From positions 248,001 to 312,000 of the forward strand of contig OY744463.1 of assembly GCA_963556145.1 (NCBI GenBank): a stretch of DNA of 64,000 bases, written 5' to 3'. The DNA is from Hygrocybe punicea. Taxonomy: Eukaryota > Basidiomycota > Agaricomycetes > Agaricales > Hygrophoraceae. Positions 7,943-62,587 of the stretch are shown here, in pieces. The position numbers were made by a program, and so were the translations under genes. Below the pieces are notes generated by a model that did not search any database, was not told the DNA's origin, and saw nothing but the letters and a program-made list of their open reading frames with translations. The first letter of the stretch is position 1. The number at the start of each line of letters is the position of its first letter.

Positions 7943-10198
7943 ATGACTTCGACCTCTGGATCCTCGACCGCTCCCCACGTTACCGCTCCCCATGTTACTC
8001 CACGACAAATGCCCGCTCGCGGTCACTCCACGGCCCCGACCTTCGACGGGAACCCGCTCAATTGAAACCGCTTCTTCGAAGAAGTCGAGATACTTGCTGC
8101 CGATGCCGCTCTCGACGACGCAGGACGCATCAAGCATAGTCTGCGCTACACGTCGCTTAGTGACTACGAGCTTTGGGCAAGTTTACCTAGCGCGACCGGC
8201 GTCAATTATGCCGCATTCAAAAGGAGCGTACTCGTGCTATACCCGGGCACGGAAGACGATCACCGGTACACTATGGCGGATCTCGACCGTCTTACGCACA
8301 CCCAAACCGCTTACGGTATCCGTACCCGCGCCGAACTTGGCGAATATTACCGCGAGTTCATCCGAATCTCAGGGTTTCTTCTAGACAAGGGTCGGATCTC
8401 TCCCCGAGAACGCAACATCGCGTACGAGAACGGCTTCCATGTCGAGCTTAAAAAGGACATCAAAACCCGTCTGCAGTACCAAAAGCCGAACCATTTCCAT
8501 AGCGACCCTTACGACTTCCAGGACTTCCACAATTGTGCCCACTTCCTGCTGGCCGGAACCGCGGCCGAACCGTCCACCGTCTCTCGTCTATCGTCAACAT
8601 CGCCTGCCGCCATCCGGTACTCGACTCCAATAGAACCCGCCACCCGCTACCCGCCACCCGCTTGCTATGACCCGGTCATTCCTAAAGCGGAACCGGTCGA
8701 ACCTAACGTATCCGACCTATTTCGTCTCGTTTCGCAACAACTCGCTGTCCTCACGCAAGCCCTCACCGAACGCAACAACCCCCCAAAGCCGTGTGCAAAT
8801 AGGGCTGAGCCGACCACCGCGGGACAGGGTTTCACCAATTTCAACTGCCTCTTTTGCGACGACCCGTTCCATCGTATACGCGATTGTCCCATCTGCGAGC
8901 AGTACACTCGAGACGGGATATGCCGCAAGAATGAGCACGGCCGCATCGTGTTGCCTAACGGAATGTATCTTCCAAAGGCTATCGTCGGCAAAAATATGAG
9001 GGAACGCTTTGACGCGTGGCACGCACAGAACCCCGGCAACCGCGCTCCCCCTGCCCGCAACCCCACAGAACCATTCCAACGCGACCCGCCGCCTCATGTA
9101 AAAGCTAACTTCGTCTCCGCCGTCGAAGTACCCACCTACGAACCAGAGGTCACCACCGAGTACGCCAACATCTTTCAGTCCACGACGTCCGACATCGACG
9201 ACGACAACGAACAGATTAAGGTTCTGGAAGCCGAAGTGCAGCGGCTTCGTAAACGGGTTAGATTCGACGGTGTAGAAATCCCATCAAAGACGAAAGGCAA
9301 GTCTAGAGAAACGTTTCCCAATCTGCCCACCACTTCCACGTCTGTCCCCGCCGCGAAACCCGCCGAGAAAACGGCCAGACCTATCAACGAGCAGCCAATC
9401 ACCATAGTCCCCCCTTCGAACACGCGGCTGACCGAGCCGACCGCCCTTGTACCGCGCACTCCCCAGAACCTTCCCGCATCGCACCCCCAATACCGCTACC
9501 AAGCCCCCATCGAAGATCCCGGTATCGCCAAATCCGTCATCGACCGCGCGCTCGATTCTCAAGTCTGCATTTCGCAGCGAGAACTTTTAGCCATGTCGTC
9601 CGACGCCCGCCGTCACATGAAGGACCTCACTACGTCGAAAAAGGTCACCGCCGAAAGTAACAACGTCGAGGTTTTCCATTTTCACGCACTCGAAATCCCC
9701 ACTCGCGCCTGTCAACACTGTCAGGAAAACGTCCCGCTCGTCGTCGGCCGCGACTCAGTCCCTCTCCGTGCGGTCTACCCGCTCATCAACGGCAAATTCG
9801 TATTCGAGTGCGTCCTCGACAACGGTTCCATGATCATCGGCATGCGACGCGATATTTGGGAGAAACTCGGTTACGGCCTCCAAAACATGAAGATGCGAAT
9901 GCAGTCGGCAAACAAGAGCGACAACGATACCCTCGGACGGATCGCAAATCTTAAATTCACCTTCGGCGACGTCGATCTTTTCCTCCAAGTCCAAGTCGTC
10001 GACGACGCCCCCTACGAGATCCTCATCGGCCGCCTGTTCTTCACGCTTTCCGAAGCCCTTACGAAGGATTATAAAAACGGAGAACAACAAGTCACGATCA
10101 CAGACCCAAACACCGGCGCCGTCGTCACCTTGCCCACCATCGAGCATAACCAAAAGAACCGACGAGAGCGGTCCGACACCGGAAAACCGGATTTTTAG
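7943..10198 (+). pseudogene. Gypsy Gag-protease frame, one stop
   Basis: First ATG of the frame is at 7943; the frame is open upstream but has no earlier ATG. After a Ser/Thr/Pro-rich leader the capsid-like region follows, then a CCHC zinc knuckle (C-x2-C-x4-H-x4-C) near residue 300 and an aspartic protease near residue 625. The protease motif reads LDNGS, with Asn where Ser or Thr is usual. An in-frame TGA at 8063-8065 interrupts the capsid part close to its start; the frame is open on both sides. The frame ends with TAG at 10196-10198, overlapping a slippery run of T that leads into pol. Confidence 0.85.
10192..10198 (+). promoter_or_regulatory. Putative -1 ribosomal frameshift site
   Basis: The Gag frame ends GAT TTT TAG. 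With five consecutive T bases, a Phe tRNA on TTT can slip back one base and pair again with TTT, after which reading continues TTA GAA into the open pol frame. Gag is in frame 2 and pol in frame 1, exactly the -1 relation required. No ATG opens pol in a convincing place. Confidence 0.6.
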
Positions 10199-12749
10199 AA
10201 GTCGAGGACCCGGAGAAACCTCTCGGGAAGGACGCACCGGGAGATGAGAAGCCGCCACTCGAAAGCGACCACACCTATACCACGAACTATGCTTCCCTTT
10301 TGCCGTTTCCCCTAGAAGAGGACTTATGTTTTTCTATCGATTTAGATTTCTCTTCGTCTCAGCCTCAGACTGCCGCCCAGTACATTTCATTGTTGACCGA
10401 TGTACAAAATCAGCTACGTACTACCGATACCCTTCCTTCGTCTTGTTCCGTCTCTGCTCCTGCGTCACATATTTCTTCTTCGAATATTTGTAACAAGGCC
10501 TCTACTGAACACGCTACCTATATCTCGTATACCACCCCCCCTACCAGGGACCTAAAAGGAGTCGTTACCAAGAAAAAGTATAAGAAGGTAGCCAATCGTA
10601 TCCGCCCAATTTCTACCACTCTCCCCGACGAATACCGCATCATACGCGAGATCACCGGCGACCCGCTAGCCGATTTACCCACGCTCCCGACTCACCTGCC
10701 CGACTTTACACCCGGCACCCGCTATACTCAGGAACGACACGACGCGATGCCGATGAACCCGGATGGATTCCTTTGGCCTGAGGAAGAAAAACTCGGCCAC
10801 CATATCATCAAAATGCAAGAAGCCGCCTTCGCCTGGAACGAATCCGAGAAAGGCCAGTTCAATACGGACTACTTCCCGCCGATCCACATTCCCACCGTAC
10901 CGCATGACCCGTGGGTCCATCGCAATATCCCAATCCCACCCGGCATCCTTAACGAAGTCATCGGCATCATCAAAGACAAAATTAACGCCGGTACCTATGA
11001 ACCCTCGAATTCGTCATATCGCTCCCGCTGGTTCTGCGTTTTGAAAAAGGACGGGAAGTCTCTTCGAATCGTCCACGATCTACAGCCGCTTAACGCCATC
11101 ACTATCCGCGATCCCGCCGTACTGCCCATGACCGAGCACTTGGCCGAGGCCTTTGGCGGCCACTCTTGCTACGCTTCCTTCGACCTCTTCGTCTCTTTCG
11201 ACCAACGCCTCGTCCACCCCTCATCTCGGGACTATATGACCTTTCAGTCTCCACTCGGAACGCTTCGACTTACGCGGATTGCTATGGGATACACAAATTC
11301 CCCGCAGATCCTACACGGTGACTCTATGTACATCCTCCATGACGAAATCACTCATCTTGCCGTTCCGTATATGGACGATATTCCCGTCAAAGGGCCTCCA
11401 ACCCGCTACGAGCAACCCGACGGTACCTACGAAACTATACCCGAGAACCCGGCAATTCGACGTTTCATTTGGGAGCACTTCCAAGGTGTCAACCGCGTCA
11501 TCCAGCGTTTCCGCTATGTTGGCGGTACCTTCAACGGCAAAAAACTCGAGTTGTGTTGACCCTCAGTCATCATTGTTGGCCACCGATGCACATATGAAGG
11601 AAGAGTAGCCGACGACTCCAAAGTACAGAAGATTCGCGATTGGCCACTGCCGACCAACCTCACCGAAGTTCGCGCCTTTCTCGGCATCTGCGGCGTCTTG
11701 CGTATTTTTATCAAGGACTTCTCGCTCCACTCCCGACCCCTCGTCCGTCTTACCCGCAAAGGTATACCCTTCAAATTTGGTGAAGAAGAAGAGACCGCCG
11801 TCGACTACCTCAAAAACGCCGTCATTACGTCGCCAGCGCTGCGCGCTATCGACTACACGCGTGAATGGGAAGTGATTCTCGCCGTCGATTCATCCGTTCT
11901 TGGAGTCGGCTTCGTTCTTATGCAAATCCGCGCCGACGGAAAGCGCTATCCGAATCGCTTTGGTTCAATATTGTGGAACGAACGCGAAGCCCGATACTCC
12001 CAGTCCAAGCTCGAACTCTACGGCCTCTTCAGGGCCCTCCGCGCCTACCGAATCTTCATCATCGGCGTCCGCAACCTCACTGTTGAAGTCGACGCGAAGT
12101 ACATAAAAGGGATGCTCAACAACCCCGACATTCAGCCCAATGCTACGATCAACCGATGGATAGCCGGCGTGCTCTTATTTGACTTTAGACTCGTTCACGT
12201 ACCCGCTTCCGCACACGGTGCGCCTGATGGACTCTCCCGATGTCCCCGCGCTGCAGAAGACCCCGAGGAGATCAACGATTCCGACGATTGGCTCGACCAC
12301 TCCTATGGTTTCTTTATGGAAGTCGTCAACTACCGACCCGTCCCCATACTGTCTAAGCCGATTGCCATATGCGGCCGCTGCCGTGCCACAGCCGACCGAC
12401 TCCAAGAATTACCCGCCGTCCTCGTCTACACAAATCAGGAAGCCGTTTCTGACATACCGCGATCCGATAAAGCCCGCGCGGCCGACACTCGTCTTGCCCT
12501 CGTCGAGAATTGGTTACGAGATCTAACCCGACCCGCGAACTTCACGGACGAAGAATACCGTCTGTTCCTACGATACGCCCTTGAATTCTTCGTCACCGAT
12601 AACAAGCTTTGGCGCAAAGACCGTCACGGAAAACACAAACTCGTCATACCGCCCGACCGCCAGCTTCAGTTACTCAAAGACGCTCACGACTCTCTCGGCC
12701 ACAAAGGTATATTCTCCGTCCGCGCTCGGCTTCTCGATCATTTCTGGTG
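10195..12749 (+). pseudogene. Gypsy pol, part 1 (RT, RNase H, start of integrase)
   Basis: One frame from the frameshift site to the insertion point. Reverse transcriptase has the catalytic box PYMDD at about 11370-11384 and the upstream Asp in FDLFVSFD. RNase H follows with VDSSVLGVGF and the Glu in SKLELYG. The integrase zinc domain begins with HDSLGH before the frame is cut at the target duplication 12743-12749. An in-frame TGA at 11557-11559 lies between RT and RNase H; the sequence on both sides is otherwise open and colinear with related elements. The frame resumes at 19240. Confidence 0.9.
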
Positions 12750-12979
12750 CAGTAGACCCAGTCGTTTTGGTTAACCCAATCGCAGATATAGTTGCAAAAG
12801 GTAGGTACACATAGCGCAGTTGCTTGCTGGGGGGGTAGGTTAACCCAAGAGACAGCTCTTGCTGGGGAAATGTGGGGTGGTAGGTTGACCCAGGTACAGC
12901 TCTTGCTGGTCAAGGGTGGCAGGGTGGGTCAACCCAGTGTCAGCTCTGCCATGGGGTAGGTTAACCCAGGACAGCTATT

Positions 12980-14360
12980 CTGGGAAGGTTGGGTTGACCC
13001 AGGTCCAGCTGTGCAAGCAACGTGGGTTGACCTGGGTTGACCGTGGACCAGCTCTTGCTGCAGGCTTGGGTTGACCTGGGTCCAGCTGTTGCTGCAGCAC
13101 TGGGTTGACCCAGGCCCAGCACTTCCTGCAGGGTGGGGTGGCTGGGGTCCAGGTATTGCTGCAGCACCGGGTTTACCAGGGTTCAGCTATTGCTGCAGCA
13201 CTGGGTTGACCGGGGTCCAGATATTGCTGTGGCACCAGGTTGACCCAGATCCAGCACTTGCTGCAGGGCTTGGGTGGACCTGGGTCCAGCTATTGCTGCA
13301 GCACTGGGTTGATCTGGTTCCAGCACTTGCTTTGGGGCTTGGGTTGACCCGGGTCCAGCTCTCCCTACAGGCTTGGGTTGACCGGGGTCCAGCTATTGCT
13401 GCAGCACTGGGTTGACCAGGGTTCAGGTATTGCTGCAGCACTGGGTTGACCGGGGTCCAGCTATTGCTGCAGGACCGGGTTGACCTGGGTCCAGCACTTG
13501 CTGCGGGGCTTGGGTTGACCCAGGTCCAGCTCTTCCTGCAGGCTTGGGTTGACCTGAGTCCAGCTATTGCTGCAGCACTGGGTTGACCGGGGTCCAGATA
13601 TTGCTGCAACACCGGGTTGACCTGGATCCAGCACTCGCTGCAGGGCTGGGGTTGACCCAGGTCCAGCTCTTCCTGCAGGCTTGGGTTGACCTGGGTCCAG
13701 CTATTGCTGCAGCACCAGGTTGACCGGGGTCCAGATATTGCTGCAGCACTGGGTTGACCTGGGTCCAGCACTTGCTGCAGCACTGGGTTGACCAGGGTCC
13801 AGCACTTGCTGCAGCACAGGGTTGACCTGGGTCTAGCTATTGCTGCTGCACCGGGTTGACCAGGGTCCAGATATTGCTGCAGCACTGGGTTGACCCAGAT
13901 CCAGCACTCGCTGCCGGGCTGGGGTTGACCAGGGTCTAGATATTGCTGCAGCACCAGGTTGACCGGGGTCCAGCACTTGCTGCGGGGCTTGGGTTGACCC
14001 AGGTCCCACTCTTCCTGCAGGCTTGGGTTGACCGGGCTCCAGCTATTGCTGCAGCACTGGGTTGACCTGGGTCCAGCACTTGCTGCAGGGCTTGTGTTGA
14101 CCAGGGTCCGGCTCTTGCTGCAGCACTTTGTTGACCCACATCCAGCACTCACTGTAGGGTAGGTTGATTGGGGTCCAGCCTGTCCTGTAGCATTGCATTG
14201 ACCCCAGACCCACCCATGTCGCAGGTTTGGATTCATGAGGGTCTGGCCATTGCTCCAGCATTGGGTTGACATGGCCCTGCTCTTGCTGCAGAATAAGGTT
14301 GACCCTGGCCCAGCTCTCACTGCAGGATTAGGTTGACCAGGATCCCGCTTTTGCTTTGAC
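12980..14360. repeat. 34-bp minisatellite, left arm
   Basis: Tandem units of 34 bp, each with GGGTTGACC, then GGTCCAGC, then TTGCTGCAG, the last giving PstI-type CTGCAG sites. Units alternate between a few variants. Long frames here on both strands are by-products of the period (34 is not a multiple of 3) and are not genes. Confidence 0.9.
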
Positions 14361-14796
14361 ACGGGCTCAGCCACATCCCACTCTGCCTGCATGTATTTAA
14401 TGTTGACAACATTGCCAGAGCTCACAACAACTCAAGCCAATATTTATTCAGAAAATGCAATATCCGGTAAAGAAAATGTCTCAGTTTCTTCAAATGTAAT
14501 ATAATTTCAAATGCAATAATTCAAAGCACAGATAATACCAAAATTACAACATTCTTATTTTGAAAATGCACAATCTCTCACTCTTAGCTTTATCTCTCAC
14601 ATGAGCTACTTATTCCCAAACAAAATTTATATATATAACAACCAGAAATTACCCCACTTGGAATTTTGTGCCTTTTTTATTTAATATTACTCAAATCTCA
14701 ATTGGAATCAGTACACAAACACTCACTATTACTTAGAATGGACATATCAAATTAATTATTATTTTATCCAAATACACAATTAAATAATAAAGGGGT

Positions 14797-15410
14797 TGGG
14801 GGGGAGGAAGGTAGGTGTGAGTGGGACTGGGACTGGGACTGGGACTGGGACTGGAAGTGGGTGTGGGTGTGGGTGTGGGTATGGGTGTGGGTGTGGGTGT
14901 GGGAGAACGGAGTGGGAGTGGGAGTGGGAGAAGGGAGGGTGAAGGGCAGGATGGAAGGGAGGAGGGAGGGGCAGCAGGGAGTGGGAGTGGGAGAGGCAGA
15001 GGAAGAGGGAGGAGACGAGGGCGGAGGGGTGGGATGTACATACCTGTTGCGTTCCCGTTGCCCTCGTCGTCTTCGTCTACGTCTCCGCCGTCCTCGTCCC
15101 CGTCGTCCCCGTCCCCGCCGTTCTGGTCCCTGTCGTTCCCGTTCCCGTCGTTCCTCTCGTTGTCGTCATCGTCCTCGTTGTCGTCGTCATCCCCCGTAGT
15201 CCTCGTCGTCCGCTGGATCGTCGTCGTCGTCTCCGTCGTCCTGTCGTCTCTTCGCTGGCCGTCTCCGTCCCCGTCGTCTTCCCTGGCTGGCCGTCTGTGC
15301 CCTCATCGCCTCTGTCCTCGTCGTTGCCTGCCATCCGCCGTTTCGGCCCTTCAGTTTGGCGTTGACGTGACGTGGCGCGGGCAAGCGTGTTGCGGTCCAT
15401 TCCCGGCACG
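14797..15410. repeat. G-rich and GAC-type microsatellites, left arm
   Basis: 14820-14905 has repeated GGGACT then GGGTGT units with many G triplets on the plus strand, a strong G-quadruplex candidate. After 15050 come CGTCGT/GTCCTC tracts. The mirror image is in the right arm. Confidence 0.85.
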
Positions 15411-15924
15411 GCAATGAGAAAGTTCTACATAAAAACAACAATATTAGCTAGCATAGTAATGGATAATAAATTTGAGAAATCTACTTACCTTCTACTTGAT
15501 TTTGCTGCTGCTGTTTTCGTGGACGCATCGTGGAGTACGCGACGAATCGCCGACGATTGAACGCACGCCAGAGGTTGCCGATTGCCCAAACGGGTGTGAG
15601 TTGCCTTATATGTAAGCATGATCTGACTTTTCTCAATGTTATTGCATAGAGCACAACAACTTTGTAACACATTTAAGACCATGAGGGGATAGAAGTAGCC
15701 TATAACTACATCCTCCCCAAATTTTGTATTTTATTATGGCCTACATAGAGAGATATTTATGATTCATTGATACCTCCCTGCCAATTTCAGACCCTTAAAG
15801 TGCAACTTTACCAATATTGCTCTGAAAAATATGAAAATAATTGTGAAACTACTATGTAAAGTATCTATTGTATTGATGATCAGTGCCTGGCACTTGGTGG
15901 TCCCAGAAATCTGTTGTAGCCAAG

Positions 15925-16001
15925 AAATGAAAGGTTCAGAGTCAAGCTGAAGTTTGGACTCGGTTGATGGGTCAGCCACAATGCACAATTCTGTGCATTT
16001 G
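15925..16001. other. Centre of the palindrome
   Basis: About 77 bp between GTTGTAGCCAAG (15913-15924) and its inverted partner CTTGGCTGCAAC (16002-16013). It contains a small hairpin, ATGCACA - ATTC - TGTGCAT, at about 15981-15998. Confidence 0.7.
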
Positions 16002-16500
16002 CTTGGCTGCAACAAAGGTCCTGGTCCACCAACAATCAGGCACTTATGTGTACCACAATGAGTACTTCTTCAAGTACTCCTTAGATTAATTTCAGATTTT
16101 TAAGACAAAGTTAGATCATTAAGGGTCCAATTCTGGCAGAGGAATGGAATAAATGGTGAATAGCTCTTTACGCAGGGCCGAATAAAATACAAAATTTGAC
16201 ATGAGGGTAGGTATACTATATTTACATCTTTTGAGGATCTGACTTTGGGTATGCATGCATTGTTGTGCATGCCAGAAGATTCAAAAGCTTCAGCCACACA
16301 TCCATGTTTGGCAACTCGAACCCGTTTGGGAAATCGGCAACTGCCGGTTGGCTTTCACGCGACTTCAAACGACTCGTTTTCAACAACGCGTCAACAACAG
16401 GAACGCGTCAACAACAGGAAACGGGTGCAGAAGAGCACCCAAGGTAATGTCTTTTTTGAATTTTTTGTGAGTTGTATGCTAATGTTTATAATGATTGCAG

Positions 16501-17325
16501 CTACACCCACGACAAACACAGGCGAACCCAACACCAGCCCAGAAAACAACGCCACGGCCACCCCAGCAAACAGAACGGATGCCGATGAAAACGGCCACGG
16601 AAACGAGGCCGCGAGGCCGGGTACGAGGATGCGCCAACGACCGAGACAGACGTCCGAGACAACCACAGCGGCAACGACGAGGACAGAGACGACGAGGGCA
16701 GAGACGGCCAGCCAGGGGACGACGACGGGACGGAGACGGCCAGCGAGAGGACAACAGGACGACGGAGACAACAGGACGAGGGAGACGACGACGACGATCC
16801 AGCGGACGACGAGGACTACGGGGGATGACGACGACAACGAGGACGATGACGACGACGAGGGGAACGACGGGAACAGGAACGACAGGGACCGGAACGCGGA
16901 GACGGGGACGATGGGGACGGGGACGACGGGGACGGGGACGGCGGGGACGGGGACGACGGAGACGTAGACGAAGACGACGAGGACGAGGGGAATGCAACGG
17001 GTACGTACATCCCACTCTCCGCCCACTCCTCCTCCCTCTCCTCCTCCCTCTCCTCCTCCCTCTCCCTCTCCCTCTCCCTCTCCCTCTCCCTCTCCCTGCT
17101 GCCCTTGCCTCCTGCCTTCCCACCTTCCCACTTCTCCCACTCCCACTCCCTTCTCCCACTCCCACCTTCCTCCACTCCCACTCCCACCTTCCTCCCACTC
17201 CACACCCACCTTCCTCCCACTCCACACCCACCTTCCTCCCACACCCACACCCACCTTCCTCCCACACCCACACCCTTCCTCCCAGTCCACACCCACCTTC
17301 CTCTCACCTGCCTCCTGCCCTTTAC
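16501..17325. repeat. GAC-type and C-rich microsatellites, right arm
   Basis: Inverted counterpart of 14797-15410: GACGACG tracts to about 16985, then C-rich CTCCCACTCC runs (G-rich on the minus strand). A candidate intron GTAATG..TTGCAG at about 16444-16500 precedes it, and the left arm has a matching donor-acceptor pair in the mirrored place. Confidence 0.8.
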
Positions 17326-17744
17326 TATTTAATTATGTATTTTAATAATCATTAAATGTATGTGTCTATTTTAAGTAATAGTAAGGTTATATATATTGAT
17401 TCCAATAAAGAATTGAGCAATATTAAATAGAAAAGCACAATATTCCAAGTGGGGTAATTTCTGGTTTTGCCATAGATTGGCATTGGGGATAAGTAGCTCC
17501 TGTAATGGCTGATGGCTGATAGTAAAAGTAAGATATTGTGCAGTGTCAAAATAATAATTGTGTAATTTTGCTATTCCCTGTGCTGTTAATAATTGCATTC
17601 AAATTATATTACATCGTACATTTATGTGAAGTACAGATTGAAACATTTTGATTACTTTATATATATGGCAGGTTCTGAATAAATATTGGTTTGAGCTGTT
17701 GTGAGCTCTGTCAATGTTGTCAACATTAAATACATGCAGGCAGA

Positions 17745-19040
17745 GTGGGATGTGGCTGGGCCCATGTCAAAGCAAAAGCGGGCTCCTGGTCAACCTAATC
17801 CTGCAGTGAGAGCTGGGCCAGGGTCAACCTTATTCTGCAGCAAGAGCAGGGCCATGTCAACCCAATGCTGGAGCAATGGCCAGACCCTCATGAATCCAAA
17901 CCTGCGACATGGGTGGGTCTGGGGTCAATGCAATGCTACAGGACAGGCTGGACCCCAATCAACCTACCCTACAGTGAGTGCTGGATGTGGGTCAACAAAG
18001 TGCTGCAGCAAGAGCTGGACCCTGGTCAACACAAGCCCTGCAGCAAGTGCTGGACCCAGGTCAACCCAGTGCTGCAGCAATAGCTGGAGCCCGGTCAACC
18101 CAAGCCTGCAGGAAGAGTGGGACCTGGGTCAACCCAAGCCCCGCAGCAAGTGCTGGACCCCGGTCAACCTGGTGCTGCAGCAATATCTAGACCCTGGTCA
18201 ACCCCAGCCCGGCAGCGAGTGCTGGATCTGGGTCAACCCAGTGCTGCAGCAATATCTGGACCCCAGTCAACCCGGTGCAGCAGCAATAGCTGGACCCAGG
18301 TCAACCCTGTGCTGCAGCAAGTGCTGGACCCTGGTCAACCCAGTGCTGCAGCAAGTGCTGGACCCAGGTCAACCCAGTGCTGCAGCAATATCTGGACCCC
18401 GGTCAACCTGGTGCTGCAGCAATAGCTGGAGCCCGGTCAACCCAAGCCTGCAGGAAGAGCTGGACCTGGGTCAACCCAAGCCCCGCAGCAAGTGCTGGAC
18501 CCAGGTCAACCCGGTCCTGCAGCAATAGCTGGACCCCGGTCAACCCAGTGCTGCAGCAATACCTGAACCCTGGTCAACCCAGTGCTGCAGCAATAGCTGG
18601 ACCCCGGTCAACCCAAGCCTGTAGGGAGAGCTGGACCCGGGTCAACCCAAGCCCCAAAGCAAGTGCTGGAACCAGATCAACCCAGTGCTGCAGCAATAGC
18701 TGGACCCAGGTCCACCCAAGCCCTGCAGCAAGTGCTGGATCTGGGTCAACCTGGTGCCACAGCAATATCTGGACCCCAGTCAACCCAGTGCTGCAGCAAT
18801 AGCTGAACCCTGGTAAACCCGGTGCTGCAGCAATACCTGGACCCCAGCCACCCCACCCTGCAGGAAGTGCTGGGCCTGGGTCAACCCAGTGCTGCAGCAA
18901 CAGCTGGACCCAGGTCAACCCAAGCCTGCAGCAAGAGCTGGTCCACGGTCAACCCAGGTCAACCCACGTTGCTTGCACAGCTGGACCTGGGTCAACCCAA
19001 CCTTCCCAGAATAGCTGTCCTGGGTTAACCTACCCCATGG
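17745..19040. repeat. 34-bp minisatellite, right arm
   Basis: Same unit as the left arm in inverse orientation. Measured between shared landmarks, this arm is about 137 bp shorter than the left one, close to four units. Confidence 0.9.
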
Positions 19041-19239
19041 CAGAGCTGACACTGGGTTGACCCACCCTGCCACCCTTGACCAGCAAGAGCTGTACCTGGG
19101 TCAACCTACCACCCCACATTTCCCCAGCAAGAGCTGTCTCTTGGGTTAACCTACCCCCCCAGCAAGCAACTGCGCTATGTGTACCTACCTTTTGCAACTA
19201 TATCTGCGATTGGGTTAACCAAAACGACTGGGTCTACTG

Positions 19240-20345
19240 TCTGGTGGCCGCACCTCGACCACGACGTTAAGTGGTATGTCCAGTCTTGCCATCAGTGCCA
19301 AGTACGGCAAATGCGTTATCATCACATTCCGCCCACCGTCACTACACCGGCCTCGCTATTTCGTAAAGCGTATGTCGACACAATGTTTATGCCATGATCC
19401 GGCGGCTATCGATACATCGTCCAAGCCCGTTGCTCCCTGTCCGCCTACCCTGAGTTCCGCATGTTACGCCGCGAGACCGGCTCCACCATCGGCACGTTCT
19501 TGTTCGAAGACATCTTATGCCGTTGGGGCGCTCTCGAAGAAATCGTTACCGACAACGGCAAGCCGTTCGTAGAAGCGCTCGACTATCTCGCCTCCCGCTA
19601 CGGTATCTGCCACATCCGCATTTCGCCCTATAACTCACAAGCGAACGGACCCGTTGAGCGTCGCCACCTAGATGTCCGGGAGGCCATTATGAAAAGTTGT
19701 GACGGAGATGAAAAGAAATGGCACACCGTAACCCACTCCGTATTTTGGGCCGAACGGGTCACGACACACAAAAGCCTCGGATACTCATCCTACTACATCG
19801 CACACGGAGTAGAACCGCTTTTTCCATTCGATTTTGCCGAAGCTACGTACATGGTTCCGACGCAAGATACGATGTCTACGACCGACCTCATAGTCATCCG
19901 CGCCCGACAACTTCGTAAACGAGAAGCCGACCTCGATCAGGTCAAAGAAAAGCTTACCAAATCTCGGCTCGCGTCCACCCGGCAATTCGAGCAGAAATAC
20001 GCCAACACGATCAAAGTTTACGACTTCGAACCCGGTAACCTCGTTCTCGTCCGAAATTCACGTATCGAAATGTCTCTCGATCGTAAAGCAAAACCGCGGT
20101 ACTTTGGACCCATGGTTGTCGTCAGGAAAACAGTAGGAGGATCCTACATACTCGCCGAACTCGACGGTGCGGTTTCTAAATCTCGATTTGCCGCTTTCCG
20201 AGTCGTACCCTACCACGCCCGCTCAAAAATATCGATACCGTTGGACGACTTCTTACAATACCCCGATGCCGACGATACCGATTCAAACGATCTTGATGAT
20301 CCGACGTACCCGCCCTCTATAGACTCCTCACCCAACGACGATTAA
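19240..20345 (+). pseudogene. Gypsy pol, part 2 (integrase)
   Basis: Resumes the integrase in frame after the target duplication: the second half of the zinc domain (CHQCQ), then the DDE core with Asp in AYVDTMF, Asp in VTDNGKPF and Glu in GPVERRH, then a chromatin-facing C-terminal part. The catalytic triad is intact. An in-frame TGA at 19395-19397 lies a few residues after the first catalytic Asp. The frame ends with TAA at 20343-20345. Confidence 0.9.
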
Positions 20346-54372: not shown

Positions 54373-55400
54373 CTAAAAGGAGGCCCGAGGGGCAAGGTGC
54401 GCGGCAAGGAGGGCAGGATGATGACGGATGTAAATGCGGAAAGTGTCGGAGGCCCAGCGGCCGATTGCTTGGATGTGGTCGAGGGACACGCCATCGCGAG
54501 CAAGAGCAGTGGCCCCACCAGAACGAAGAGATTGGCCAGCGACTTCGCGGGGGAAGTGAAGACGCAAACGGTGAAGGAACCAGGAGCGGAGGGGCACGGA
54601 GCCATCATGGCGGAGCCAGAGTTCCGGGTGGAGCGGGAAGAGAAGGTCGCGGGATGTGAGGTAGGCTTCAAATGCAGAGACAGGGTCATCGTGATCGGGT
54701 AGTCGACGTAGGAGAATGGTGTTGCCTTCAAACAGCCTGTCGGCCTTATGCCCAGGTAGATGGAAGGAAAAACCTTCCGAAAAAAATTTTACTGAGTGCC
54801 GCATGACTATCTTTCGGTAATCGCGCAGAGAAGCGCTATCCGGCCACACCAACTCGCCGAGACGGGTGAGGGCATGGAAGCCTACAAGAAGGAGGGAGAG
54901 GAAGAGCTTGTCGTCGTGATCTGAGGACGAGCGGTAGACGTCGCAAAGGGAAACAAGCTCGGAACGGAGGAGGGGGCGTTTGTGGGTGGTACCAACGGCG
55001 CGCATTTTCTTACAACCGCGAAGGGTCCGGGTAACGAGGGGATGAAGGCGATGGGACCGGACATCAGGGTAGAACGGTTCAAGCTGGGTGCAGATGCCGG
55101 AAAGGTAGGCGGAAACGGAGTTGGGCTTGATGTGGTGGCACATGTATACTGTAAAAAAACTAAGAGTTTCAGGTGTGGGGGCGATAGAAAAACGGTGGGC
55201 GGTGCAAAAGGAAATGTAAGAACGTAGTGCAGATGAGTAGGCAAGCATCGAAGAGTGTTCGAGAGAGAAACCGAGGGCGACGGCTCGTTCATGAACGAGA
55301 CGGTCGTGGGTCCAGGCAACCCGAGTGGGCTGCCGGGACCGGCCAAGCGGGTTCAGCGTGGATCGGCCCCCAGCGACAGTCGAGGGGGTAGGAATGTACA
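54373..55400 (-). CDS. DIRS tyrosine recombinase
   Basis: The first ATG of the frame is 55248, but conserved coding continues upstream to about 55400, overlapping the end of the RT frame, so it is probably made by frameshift or from an earlier start. Catalytic residues of a tyrosine recombinase: Arg in LTRLGELVW, QSLRSGGAT (the HxxR box with Gln in place of His), GRWASD and the nucleophile Tyr in FRIYIRHH near the C-terminus. It would integrate a circular DNA intermediate without a target duplication. Confidence 0.85.
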
Positions 55401-57190
55401 GATGCGGAAGTTGGGAAAAGAGGAAAGGAGTACGGTATTATGGAAGCGAGAAAGTGCATCCGCTACGGCATTATCGGTACCGCGGACATGGAAGACACGG
55501 AGCTCGGCACGAAAGGCGAGGAGAAGGTCGACAGCGGTGATGAGAATTGGGTTGTAGGCCGGCTGGGCGTGCAAAGTATTGAAAAGGTCTACGGTGTTAG
55601 AGTTGTCAGTGAAAACGGCGACACGACGGGGAGTGTATGGAAGGGCGTGAAGCGACCAGTGGAGAGCGGAAAGGACGGCGAGCGCTTCCCAGAAAAAGAT
55701 ACGGTCGAAGGAAGGATCCGGGATTGCACACTGAAAGCCGACGGACAGTGTGGGGCACCAGAAACCGAGGCCGGTGAAGGAGGCGTCAGCAAAGAGAACG
55801 ACGTCGGCCGCGGGAACATCCCAAGAGAAGGACTCAAGGAGAAGGATGCCGGACGAGGACTCCAGATGGCTAGCGAACCAGAGGAGTTCGCGGGAGAGCG
55901 CAACACTGACCCAAATCAGTTGATGCGGTCGCGACTTGCCAGCCATTTTGCAGTACAGGACGGATAACCCGGGGCGTAAGAGTGGGTATACATTCAAGGC
56001 CCAGTTCATCCATCCAGCGAGCCGTTGGAAATCACGTAGAGGGTGTCGACGACCCGGATGGGCGAAGTTGCGAATGGTGACGAGAAGGTCATCCCGTCGG
56101 TCGGGGGCCATGGTAAATGTCATGGCGTTAGGGTCGACATTGAAGCCGATGATAGGCAGGACCGGACCGGCGAGTTGCTTGGGTTCATCGTGTGGCAGGC
56201 CGATTTCGTCCCACAGCATTAAGAGGCGCGCCTGTTTGGCTGGCAACGCCTTGTGGAAGGGTGCGTACCAAAGGAGATTGCCCTCGAACTCCCACGAGAA
56301 AGTGTCGTCAACATAAGTGAAGAGATCGGCGATGGATTTGATAAAGATTGCGATCCAAATAACAAGGCCTATGAAGGCTCCCCAAATACTTCCGGCGCCG
56401 CGATTACCAAAGTTATTGCAGCGGTCGACGTGCCGGAGGCCATCAACGGTGACGACCTGACGGATTTGCCACAGGCGGTGCATAGGAAGGCGTCGGTAGG
56501 CCTGGGATACATCAGACTTGAAGACAATTAGACGGACGTGTGGACCATGGAGAGCGCGAACCCGGAGAAGAGCGTGGCCTAAAAGATGAAGGTCATCAAG
56601 CGGGACAGCAACTTTGTCTCGGGGAATGAGTGAGTTGAGGGAGAAAGGCTCAGCACTCTGATCAACGACAAGCCGGAAGGTTGTGGTTCCGGGCTTGGGC
56701 ACGACTCCGATCGGGATGGCGTGCATGCCGGGAAGGAGGTCAGGCCCAAACGCCGGAGAGAAACGCCGAAGGGAGACTTCCTTGTCGCGTTGTGACCGGA
56801 CAAAATCTTGTTCAGCCTGGTCTCGTAAGATGCGCGCGGAATTGTCCCACGTGAGCGGGCGTGATGGGTCATGTTCCGCCCAGGGCCAGAAACCTTCGTA
56901 CAGTCCCCGGCAGATGGAGTTGACGAGGTCCCGATTCGGGTGGGAGCTGAGTAAACGGCGGAAACGAGAGATGTTGATTGGGGTGACGATGTCGAAAAGG
57001 TGCGGATTGTCATCAATGGTGCGTAAGGCGGCAATGTTGGCGAATTCTTCAAGAGGCGGAGACGGAAGCGCAGGCATGCCATGGGTTGCTAAAGAAAGAG
57101 TGACCCGACGGGTCTCGCCGGATTCATTCCAGACGAAAGCCCGAGCGTATTTTGGACATCGCGAACACAGGGAATACGGCTTACTGTTTT
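55353..57190 (-). CDS. DIRS reverse transcriptase-RNase H
   Basis: Reverse transcriptase with FRLVVDQSAEP, FKSDVSQAYRR and the catalytic box LFTYVDDTFSW, then RNase H with VVLFADASFTGLGFW, WEALAVLSAL and VFTDNSNTVDLFN. The same frame stays open upstream to 58379, across the whole gag frame, but those residues look like an accident of composition. The C-terminus overlaps the recombinase frame. Confidence 0.85.
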
Positions 57191-58395
57191 TGGAGGATGT
57201 TGCAATCGACGGAGGCATGCTGAGGGGACTGGCACTTTGCGCAAACATGCTTGTAGTCGCAAGTGGATGCAGTGTTGGGGCATCGTTTGGCGTTCCAGCG
57301 TCGGCATGGTTCTCTCCTTTTTGCTGGGTCAGTTCGGGAGCGCTCAGCCGCTCGTGTTTGGCCAGTGCCGGCTCCGGCGTTTTGGATCCAGAGGACGTGA
57401 AGATCGGCGAAACGGGAGAAATCCGTGAGTTCGACGTCACGTCGTTGGGCGGTTCGGATGCGGGTGGCCCGGTCGTATTGGATAATACGTTGGTGCATGG
57501 CGTCAGGAAACGCGGCGAAGAGCTCGCTGATGTGTTTTCCATAGTCACGTAACTCGGCGGCTCGGTGAGGGAAGACGAAGACAGTGGCTTCACATGTCCG
57601 TCCCCATGCGATGACCCACTTCCCGTGGGTGTCGACGACTCTGGCGGGTTTGACGGCTCCGACGACGAACTCGACGCCACCAATCTTTTCAGAACGTTTG
57701 TCATCGTGCGTGACTGAGTATCCGCTGGTGAGGACGTGGTCGAGATCGACGGCGCGTCCGGCGAGAAGGTTGGTCCATTCAGAGTCCGGAAACTGGGGGC
57801 ACCGCGCCGAATTGAGCAAGGAGGATTTGGCGAGCTTGGGGTCTCGTGAAATGTTTTCGAGCGTCGACAACGTTTGTTGGAGCGAGACAGAAAGGCGAGA
57901 TGGCTCCAGCTCTTCTTGGATGACCCACGGCAAAGATTTGAGGTCGAGCTTAGGCTTAGACGATGGCTCGAGCTCTGCTTCGTCACTGGGGCTTCGAGGA
58001 CGCTTAGGGGCTTTATGAACAGCAGTTTCTTTGTCTGGGGCCGGCGAAGTAACGGGCGACGGCTCCCGCGACTGTATGGTAGAGTCGTCGGGTCCTGCTG
58101 GTCCATGTTCTGCGGAGGAGTTGTCCAAAACAGTCCCTCGGTTCCTGGCATCATCGCGCCGATGGTCGATGTTGTCGAGGATGCGGAGATAGACGGCAAA
58201 CGTGGACTCGAGGACGTGGTCGCCGAGTCCGAGACCGGTGAGCACATCCTGTATTTCAAGGGTGGCTGAGGCTTTAGAGATGTCTCCAAGCCGGAAACGG
58301 TCCGTAATGCGAACGCACTCTTTGACCGTTTCCGCGTCGACGGCGCCAATTGGCGTGGGTGTAGAAGGTGAGGGTTCATTTTGTGAATTAGACAT
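57181..58395 (-). CDS. DIRS Gag-like protein
   Basis: 404 aa from ATG 58395. Ser/Pro-rich and acidic N-terminal third, then a conserved globular part (LPWVIQEELEPSRLSVSLQQ region), and a Cys/His-rich end, CRRWNAKRC..CDYKHVCAKCQ..H..DC, likely zinc binding. Position before RT and the zinc-finger end fit a nucleocapsid role. Confidence 0.75.
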   Translation of the reverse strand: MSNSQNEPSPSTPTPIGAVDAETVKECVRITDRFRLGDISKASATLEIQDVLTGLGLGDHVLESTFAVYLRILDNIDHRRDDARNRGTVLDNSSAEHGPAGPDDSTIQSREPSPVTSPAPDKETAVHKAPKRPRSPSDEAELEPSSKPKLDLKSLPWVIQEELEPSRLSVSLQQTLSTLENISRDPKLAKSSLLNSARCPQFPDSEWTNLLAGRAVDLDHVLTSGYSVTHDDKRSEKIGGVEFVVGAVKPARVVDTHGKWVIAWGRTCEATVFVFPHRAAELRDYGKHISELFAAFPDAMHQRIIQYDRATRIRTAQRRDVELTDFSRFADLHVLWIQNAGAGTGQTRAAERSRTDPAKRREPCRRWNAKRCPNTASTCDYKHVCAKCQSPQHASVDCNILQKQ

Positions 58396-61694: not shown

Positions 61695-62587
61695 TGTAAC
61701 ATAGAGACTCGACGTCCCTCTGAGTCCGTATCCTCGATATATCATGAATCTGGATGAACCCGATGCTTCCATTCAACTCGCATTCGAACCCGACGCAACC
61801 CGATGTGACATGACGTGATGTGACCGATGTAACCCGACACATGCCGCTTTGTCACAGCCGCTTTTGGACCAAATCCGGCAGCCTCAGAAGCCCCGGAGTT
61901 CTAATTATAGGAGATGGATCTCATCGGACTCAATCCCTGACTTCGGATTTACCTTATTTGTGCATCCCCTCGTCCTTTCAGAGATATGTAGGACCTTTTT
62001 AGATCTATTCCTTGCATATTCATTTTCCCCTCCATATTCCTGTCTTCGTCGCTTTGCAACCCCCCTTTCCACATCCCCATTCCATCTTTTCTTTGTAGTT
62101 TCTATCGGCCAAAGTAGACATGTCCGAAAGTAGTTACACACACATGTACTATAAAAACGGTCCCCGACGACTGTACAAAAAGAGATACCCTTAGTCCCTG
62201 TTTCCCTCATAGTCAGAATCATTTTAATCACTTCAAATGCTCGTCCTCGTAAACCCTTAGCCTTTTTATAGTTCACTTTGTTGTCTTAATCTTTATTCCT
62301 TTATTTGTTCATCGTTTCTGACCCGACCCGACCCGACCCGACCCGCCGTACCCGACATTGTCGGCATCGTCGGGTTCTTCGTTATTCATCCGTTTTCACT
62401 CCGTTCATCGCCGGATTTATTATTATTAGTCCAGTTTTACGTGGCAGCTTTATATTTTACTTACATTCCTTTACTTTTACTACTATTCCCGACACTGACT
62501 TATCCACAGTCACTTCTATGCTGACACCCCTTGGGCTAGGATCATATTTCTTTATTGTTCCGAAGCCACCCCGAAGCCACATCTACA
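61695..62587 (+). repeat. Lone LTR related to the Gypsy LTR
   Basis: About 893 bp, TGTAACATAGAG..CATCTACA. Shares with the 796-bp LTRs, in the same order, GAACCCGACGCAACCCGA, ATAAAAACGGT.CCC, ACCCGACATTGTCGGC and the AGCCACCCCGA end, with much divergence between. TATAAAAA at 62150-62157. No primer site follows it and no target duplication was seen, so it is either a solo LTR in altered flanks or the right LTR of a decayed element. Confidence 0.7.

Follow-up and report, generated by a model that had tools for sequence, protein, structure and literature searches.

Foldback elements, whose long inverted arms of tandem repeats flank a middle domain, have mostly been placed in the Mutator superfamily, with exceptions such as Galileo of the P superfamily (PMC4079207, PMC3573991). 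In Drosophila, Foldback/Tetris is described as non-autonomous, with target duplications of 8-10 bp and no transposase found, and is placed in Mutator (PMC4079207); Galileo is described as foldback-like, with 7-bp duplications in most copies (PMC3573991) and a transposase that binds repeats inside its long arms (PMC3688188). A 7-bp target duplication also marks Kyakuja, a branch of the KDZ transposons, whose two families from Laccaria are given as having CA..TG ends and no terminal inverted repeats; the same account assigns 8-bp duplications to the other KDZ branches Zisupton and Dileera, and 7-bp duplications to hAT7 of rust fungi (Kojima 2025, PMC12730594). Here we describe a palindromic mobile element of 6490 bp at positions 12750-19239 of a 64,000-nucleotide stretch of the basidiomycete Hygrocybe punicea (contig OY744463.1, positions 248,001 to 312,000; hereafter the window). 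We consider it likely that this is a recent, non-autonomous foldback transposon of the KDZ superfamily and of Kyakuja type, moved in trans by the CxC2-KDZ transposase of relatives that share its end, and with arms renewed by copying.

The element resembles Kyakuja, as described by Kojima, in its 7-bp duplication, its CA..TG ends (CAGTAG...CTACTG) and the KDZ transposase of its larger relatives. It has the KDZ transposase domain in common with Zisupton and Dileera, but the duplications reported for those branches are 8 bp. Like Foldback/Tetris as portrayed in its source, it is non-autonomous and has tandem-repeat arms around a middle domain; unlike that element, it makes 7-bp duplications and has relatives with a KDZ gene. 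Long inverted arms with internal tandem repeats and 7-bp duplications are both described for Galileo. An earlier sequence-only reading of this DNA had likened the element to animal foldback elements and set it apart from them by its 7-bp duplication; the likeness of build stands, but the duplication does not distinguish it, since that of Galileo is mostly 7 bp as well (PMC3573991). Our search of the open-access literature returned neither a fungal foldback or palindromic transposon nor a KDZ element with such arms, and so did not contradict that reading's further statement that no fungal family of this build is known.

The inverted ends begin and stop exactly at the boundaries of the element, which starts with CAGTAGACCCAG and finishes with the reverse complement of CAGTAGACCCAG, and the TCTGGTG found on either side is a perfect 7-bp target duplication. 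The host of the insertion is itself a retrotransposon, which we take to be Ty3/gypsy-like: the open frame preceding the element has reverse-transcriptase RNase H domains and stops within an integrase zinc-binding domain (37 of 59 positions, 24.6 bits, just below the Pfam family cut-off of 25.5). As an empty-site query we used the 120 bases that result when the element and one copy of the duplication are removed. The joined site is uninterrupted in all 40 places scored (from 243 candidates) at 97-99% identity, 39 of them over all 120 bases and one over 118, and the insertion was therefore precise.

Inverted similarity runs almost to the centre of the element. The first 461 bp of both arms are exactly identical, and the outer ~1.6 kb is 98-100% identical in 100-column windows (95% in the last, 1600-1700), with a single 137-bp gap in the array as the sole gap noted. 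Inward from ~1.64 kb, successive 200-column windows give 83, 78, 72, 80, 94, 68, 50, 65 and 61% arm identity. Most of this drop occurs abruptly where a 34-bp minisatellite array ends on its inner side, as a step and not a slope; the earlier description of arms that are identical at the ends and diverge inward was thus right in outline. The innermost inverted match pairs 15718-15929 with 15996-16198 at 68% and leaves ~66 bp at the axis, close to the ~77 bp originally proposed. Local inverted scores at ~0-300, 300-700, 700-1200 and 1200-1600 bp from the assumed axis (89, 49, 489 and 368) exceed the maxima at the same distances among 100 dinucleotide shuffles each (29, 31, 40 and 32), and global alignment of shuffled sequence, as a control, reached 39% identity. 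Similarity continues inward of the minisatellite, and both arms carry the same six parts in the same order: terminal unique part, 34-bp array, AT-rich zone, G-rich microsatellite, GC-rich block and centre (Table 1). With long inverted tandem-repeat arms around a middle domain, the element has foldback architecture, a term for its build and not its lineage. The boundaries, target duplication, depth of inverted similarity and order of parts given by the sequence-only reading were all borne out.

The second copy with these ends that had been called for was found many times over: the terminal 30-mer occurs 181 times in the genome (90 forward, 91 reverse), and its reversed control not once. Pairing neighbours by orientation among 178 listed ends gave 64 pairs and 50 unpaired ends; the pairs span 4.6-49 kb with a median of 7.2 kb, and 59 are no longer than 11.1 kb. 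We inspected 30 pairs for target duplications (19 read whole, including the window copy; five long pairs and three more by their flanks; two pairs bearing KDZ genes; and the pair L055), and 29 have perfect 7-bp duplications. Together with the empty sites, these support the reading of the element as mobile. For the subfamily to which the window copy belongs, the centre is 99-100% identical across the 40 places scored out of 416 candidates, the window copy being one of them, which points to recent amplification in a burst. The exception, L055 (C7:917438-927407, 9.97 kb), is an inverted dimer whose halves, 99.96% identical over 4.8 kb, are separated by a central run of 100 N; considered at first as a second-order palindrome, it was rejected on account of that centre and the absence of a target duplication, and is probably mis-assembled. 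L057 has two left terminal 30-mers at a spacing of 92 bp (C3:2236302 and 2236394) and a perfect outer target duplication. Three pairs of 29.9, 38.8 and 49.3 kb (C1:8208030-8237883, C6:4656742-4695553 and C7:1528547-1577817) all have exact ends and perfect 7-bp duplications, and possibly hold nested inserts or cargo.

The KDZ transposase family (PF18758) gave 186 matches among 150 scored of 429 candidates in this 92-Mb genome, where TET/JBP is also abundant (122 matches). Among 143 listed KDZ places, two fall within pairs that have the identical exact end: C36:1185530-1195425, of 9896 bp, with the perfect 7-bp duplication TGACGTG, and C35:5028002-5038637, of 10636 bp, with the perfect 7-bp duplication AGCTTGG. 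The absence of a visible transposase noted by the earlier reading is thus true of the window copy but not of these same-end relatives. Their KDZ genes belong to one lineage (98-100%), are encoded on the minus strand at a distance of 2.6-2.8 kb from the left end, and have a CxC2 domain upstream of KDZ. A manually spliced fragment of the C36 gene, from 1.5 kb, is open across several exons and matches the Pfam KDZ domain over 217 of 217 positions (1.2e-59), its top-scoring public relative being a Pleurotus eryngii sequence 57% identical; the C35 domain matches without stops. Neither pair contains a TET/JBP match in the genome search for that family. At 0.7 kb inside each end of the C36 pair, sampling hit the 34-bp array, inversely oriented at the two ends. 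Neither the samples from 1.7 kb inside the ends nor one from mid-element matched the window or the fetched loci. More widely, four of the ten places of this KDZ lineage (at least 83% identity) have a correctly oriented exact end within 6 kb: the C36 and C35 pairs, C35:4243620 (a partial match, 2.0 kb) and C35:142423 (5.2 kb). The chance of at least four such places is ~4e-6, with the 6-kb limit set post hoc, the places treated as independent, and three of the ten (on C8, C11 and C32) possibly a single locus, which affects the estimate. The 9.9-10.6-kb relatives that bear KDZ genes are probable autonomous partners of the palindromes.

Other associations of KDZ genes with these ends were considered and set aside. 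The KDZ gene 13 kb from the single end at C3:3394199 belongs to a sister family. This sister gene (C3:3381229) is 68% identical over the exon and lies between inverted arrays of 33-bp units ~70% alike; with up to two mismatches, the left array (712 bp) has 15 forward occurrences of the motif CAGCACTTGCTG and one reversed, the right array (997 bp) has 24 reversed and 10 forward, and the 8.2 kb between them have 0 and 2. Long inverted arrays therefore seem to belong to this KDZ clade and not to the palindromes alone. Within the 20-kb stretch C3:3374300-3394299 (L059/L060), we found neither a second copy of the palindrome end (up to three mismatches in the first 16 bases) nor CA..TG ends of the sister element's own with a 7-bp duplication. 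The KDZ gene of a 21.2-kb pair (C3:2942772-2964020) was rejected as an autonomous copy because it sits in a nested insert with other ends: ~17 kb interrupt a palindromic copy there, with stops in the KDZ gene and a TET/JBP match at C3:2960376. The insert has CA..TG ends of its own, which resemble each other imperfectly over 83 bp in inverted orientation, and its 7-bp duplication is likewise imperfect (TCCAGGG/TCTGGGG); its right boundary is one that we chose. A 17.9-kb pair likewise is no giant element; it consists of palindrome parts and a foreign insert with direct repeats 4938 bp apart, identical in four of four overlaps of 38 bp. We initially read this insert as a long terminal repeat retrotransposon and did not keep that identification. 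Window positions 61702-62144 are 84-89% like two spot samples of this pair (region C6:1674500-1683899). In a separate Pfam search, three translated spot samples gave no match.

To follow the history of the arms, we oriented 19 copies by their centres and sorted them into subfamily A (11 copies, including the window copy), subfamily B (five copies) and three singles, L040, L050 and L056. A tree built from the outermost 460 bp pairs left with right arm within L050, within L056 and within L040, and groups the arms of A and B by subfamily and not by side. Just inside the array, the 11 left arms of A form one clade and the 11 right arms another, ~80% alike, whereas B, L040, L050 and L056 show 99-100% identity between their two arms. 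Measured against the A reference, L040 has two right-type arms through its first 600 columns (95-97% to the right, 56-86% to the left), and the same holds for L041 and L043 through their first 400 (87-95% to the right, 78-80% to the left). L050 leans to the left type in both arms (81-87% to the left, 75-81% to the right, with a tie in the first window), and the arms of L056 were assigned to neither type. Homogenisation of the arms is thus clear between lineages, a statement that does not extend to single copies or single transpositions. The simplest reading is that of one old palindrome, its age shown by its centre, whose arms appear to have been re-copied several times, with differing inner limits and with either arm as donor.

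Drawing on the shared end, the duplication length and the arrays, we infer that the KDZ transposase most likely moves the window element. The palindrome would be cut and pasted by transposase acting in trans, supplied by the 9.9-10.6-kb relatives with the same 30-bp end, of which that on C36 also has inverted arrays of the 34-bp repeat. The transposase may dock on the 34-bp units, which are probably its binding sites, by analogy with the Galileo transposase and the repeats in its long arms. One arm would then be copied onto the other, either by inter-arm gene conversion in the folded element or by repair synthesis after cleavage, two routes that the data do not separate, and such copying would keep ends and arrays alike while the centre decays. 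It is conceivable, though we rate it as rather doubtful, that palindromy renews itself in this manner, with transposition or repair occasionally copying arm onto arm from the terminus inward, so that ends and arrays stay alike as the centre decays; KDZ would in that case be a further transposase superfamily to have evolved the foldback build independently.

Several observations weigh against this account. The window copy encodes no transposase, and is therefore taken as non-autonomous. KDZ genes of this kind were found in only two of the 64 pairs; by uniform chance ~0.7 KDZ matches would be expected in pairs shorter than 12 kb, and the excess is not significant, so that the link to KDZ rests on position, orientation, lineage, the 7-bp duplications and the near-end association. 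C35:142423 and C35:4243620 each have one exact end only. Our view of the C36 pair comes from 1.5 kb, five 150-bp samples and both ends, and that of the C35 pair from its ends. The nested KDZ gene of the 21.2-kb pair shows a route by which a false link to KDZ could arise. Consensus units of 33 and 34 bp from the sister and palindrome arrays align with a score of 15, against a best of 16 among 500 shuffles. The inverted arms of ~1.6 kb, mostly 34-bp repeats and with 461 bp exact, are unlike the Laccaria Kyakuja families as described, in which the absence of terminal inverted repeats is descriptive and may not be defining. As for arm copying, identities over the outer 1500 bp, which shifts of array register lower, place just 16 of 38 arms nearest their own mate and the other 22 nearer an arm from a different copy; within A and B, the two arms of one copy are hardly more alike over their outermost 460 bp than are arms of different copies.

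The KDZ genes of the two ~10-kb pairs might instead be hitch-hikers or nested inserts, with another, unseen transposase moving the palindromes. Nesting does occur, as the KDZ/TET element of the 21.2-kb pair and the insert with 4938-bp-spaced repeats of the 17.9-kb pair demonstrate, and KDZ genes are very common in this genome. We nevertheless regard this alternative as improbable. The two pairs hold the same KDZ lineage at a near-equal offset and in the same orientation, with different perfect 7-bp duplications; neither seems long enough to contain a palindrome together with a second whole element, and the samples taken 1.7 kb from either end of the C36 pair show no palindrome interior.

The palindromes as a foldback transposon with re-copied arms must also be set against the notion that each lineage is a fresh inverted duplication of one end, with no later copying between arms. 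Foldback elements can originate by inverted duplication, and there are exact inverted repeats of 2370 bp in L043 and 1179 bp in L040. A fresh duplication with a new centre would, however, have replaced the 751-bp centre, and all five copies examined from other lineages (L040, L041, L043, L050 and L056) have it uninterrupted, with 89-93% identity to that of the window copy. This centre is moreover asymmetric, its inverted halves being only ~66-69% alike, and we give this explanation little chance. Smaller still is the probability we attach to an assembly artefact, in which assembly or polishing overwrote one arm with the other. Such long palindromes pose a difficulty for assembly; the inverted dimer L055 has its central 100 N and lacks a target duplication, and L054 also contains 100 N. 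But of the 20 pairs retrieved in full, 18 are free of N, including the window copy, array lengths differ between arms in several copies (by 137 bp in the window copy, and by more elsewhere), and the breakpoints are lineage-specific and accompanied by perfect target duplications. A P-superfamily element like Galileo, equal in build and duplication length, was already disfavoured and is extremely improbable: Galileo is described with a P/THAP transposase and an insect host, and a genome-wide search here for PF12017 gave a sole, weak match (29.3 bits, 37 profile positions, C2:977782) that lies outside all 64 pairs, KDZ being found in two.

Mutator target duplications are ~8-11 bp, and the 7 bp seen in 29 of 30 pairs do not agree with that length; the Mutator transposase itself was not searched for. 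The PF18758 domain in the same-end C36 relative places the group in the KDZ superfamily, and duplication length and ends make Kyakuja type the best reading of the element. Given the difference in terminal inverted repeats, we file it as Kyakuja type and not as proven Kyakuja.

Coordinates of the element, its parts and its insertion site are collected in Table 1. Elsewhere in the window, minus-strand frames at 54373-58395 have some resemblance to a tyrosine recombinase, to a reverse transcriptase with RNase H and to a CCCH-type protein; a Pfam search with two of these frames gave nothing at 0.001.

Table 1. Features of the palindromic element and its insertion site (window positions; TRF, Tandem Repeats Finder)
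Feature	Positions	Strand	Basis or remark
Whole palindromic element	12750..19239	.	Ends CAGTAG...CTACTG; exact inverted ends, site uninterrupted elsewhere
Left target-site duplication TCTGGTG	12743..12749	.	
Right target-site duplication TCTGGTG	19240..19246	.	
Retrotransposon coding region	8234..20345	+	Open frames and Pfam: RNase H domains, integrase zinc-binding domain cut at insertion
Left terminal inverted repeat, 461 bp identical to right end	12750..13210	+	
Right terminal inverted repeat, 461 bp identical to left end	18779..19239	-	
Left 34-bp minisatellite array, ~32 units	13032..14136	+	TRF
Right 34-bp minisatellite array, ~28 units, inverted relative to left	17990..18957	-	TRF
Left AT-rich zone directly inside array; arm identity down to ~80%	14394..14790	.	
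Right AT-rich zone, inverted counterpart of left	17335..17732	.	
Left G-rich microsatellite-like stretch	14815..15011	.	TRF
Right C-rich counterpart of G-rich stretch	17017..17307	.	TRF
Left GC-rich exon-like block, outward-reading, putative	15040..15540	-	Sequence and alignment
Right GC-rich exon-like block, outward-reading, putative	16380..17010	+	Sequence, alignment and open frames
Centre, containing inverted copies 15718-15929/15996-16198	15700..16280	.	Local inverted alignment

If our reading is true, KDZ would be added to the transposase superfamilies in which the foldback build is known; KDZ transposons are common in fungi and their ends sparsely described. The 64 paired palindromic copies in one genome are likely sites of rearrangement. 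This genome also offers probable autonomous and non-autonomous partners that can be tested together, and comparison of the arms provides a readable record of copying between inverted arms, through which the upkeep of arm likeness in foldback elements becomes testable.

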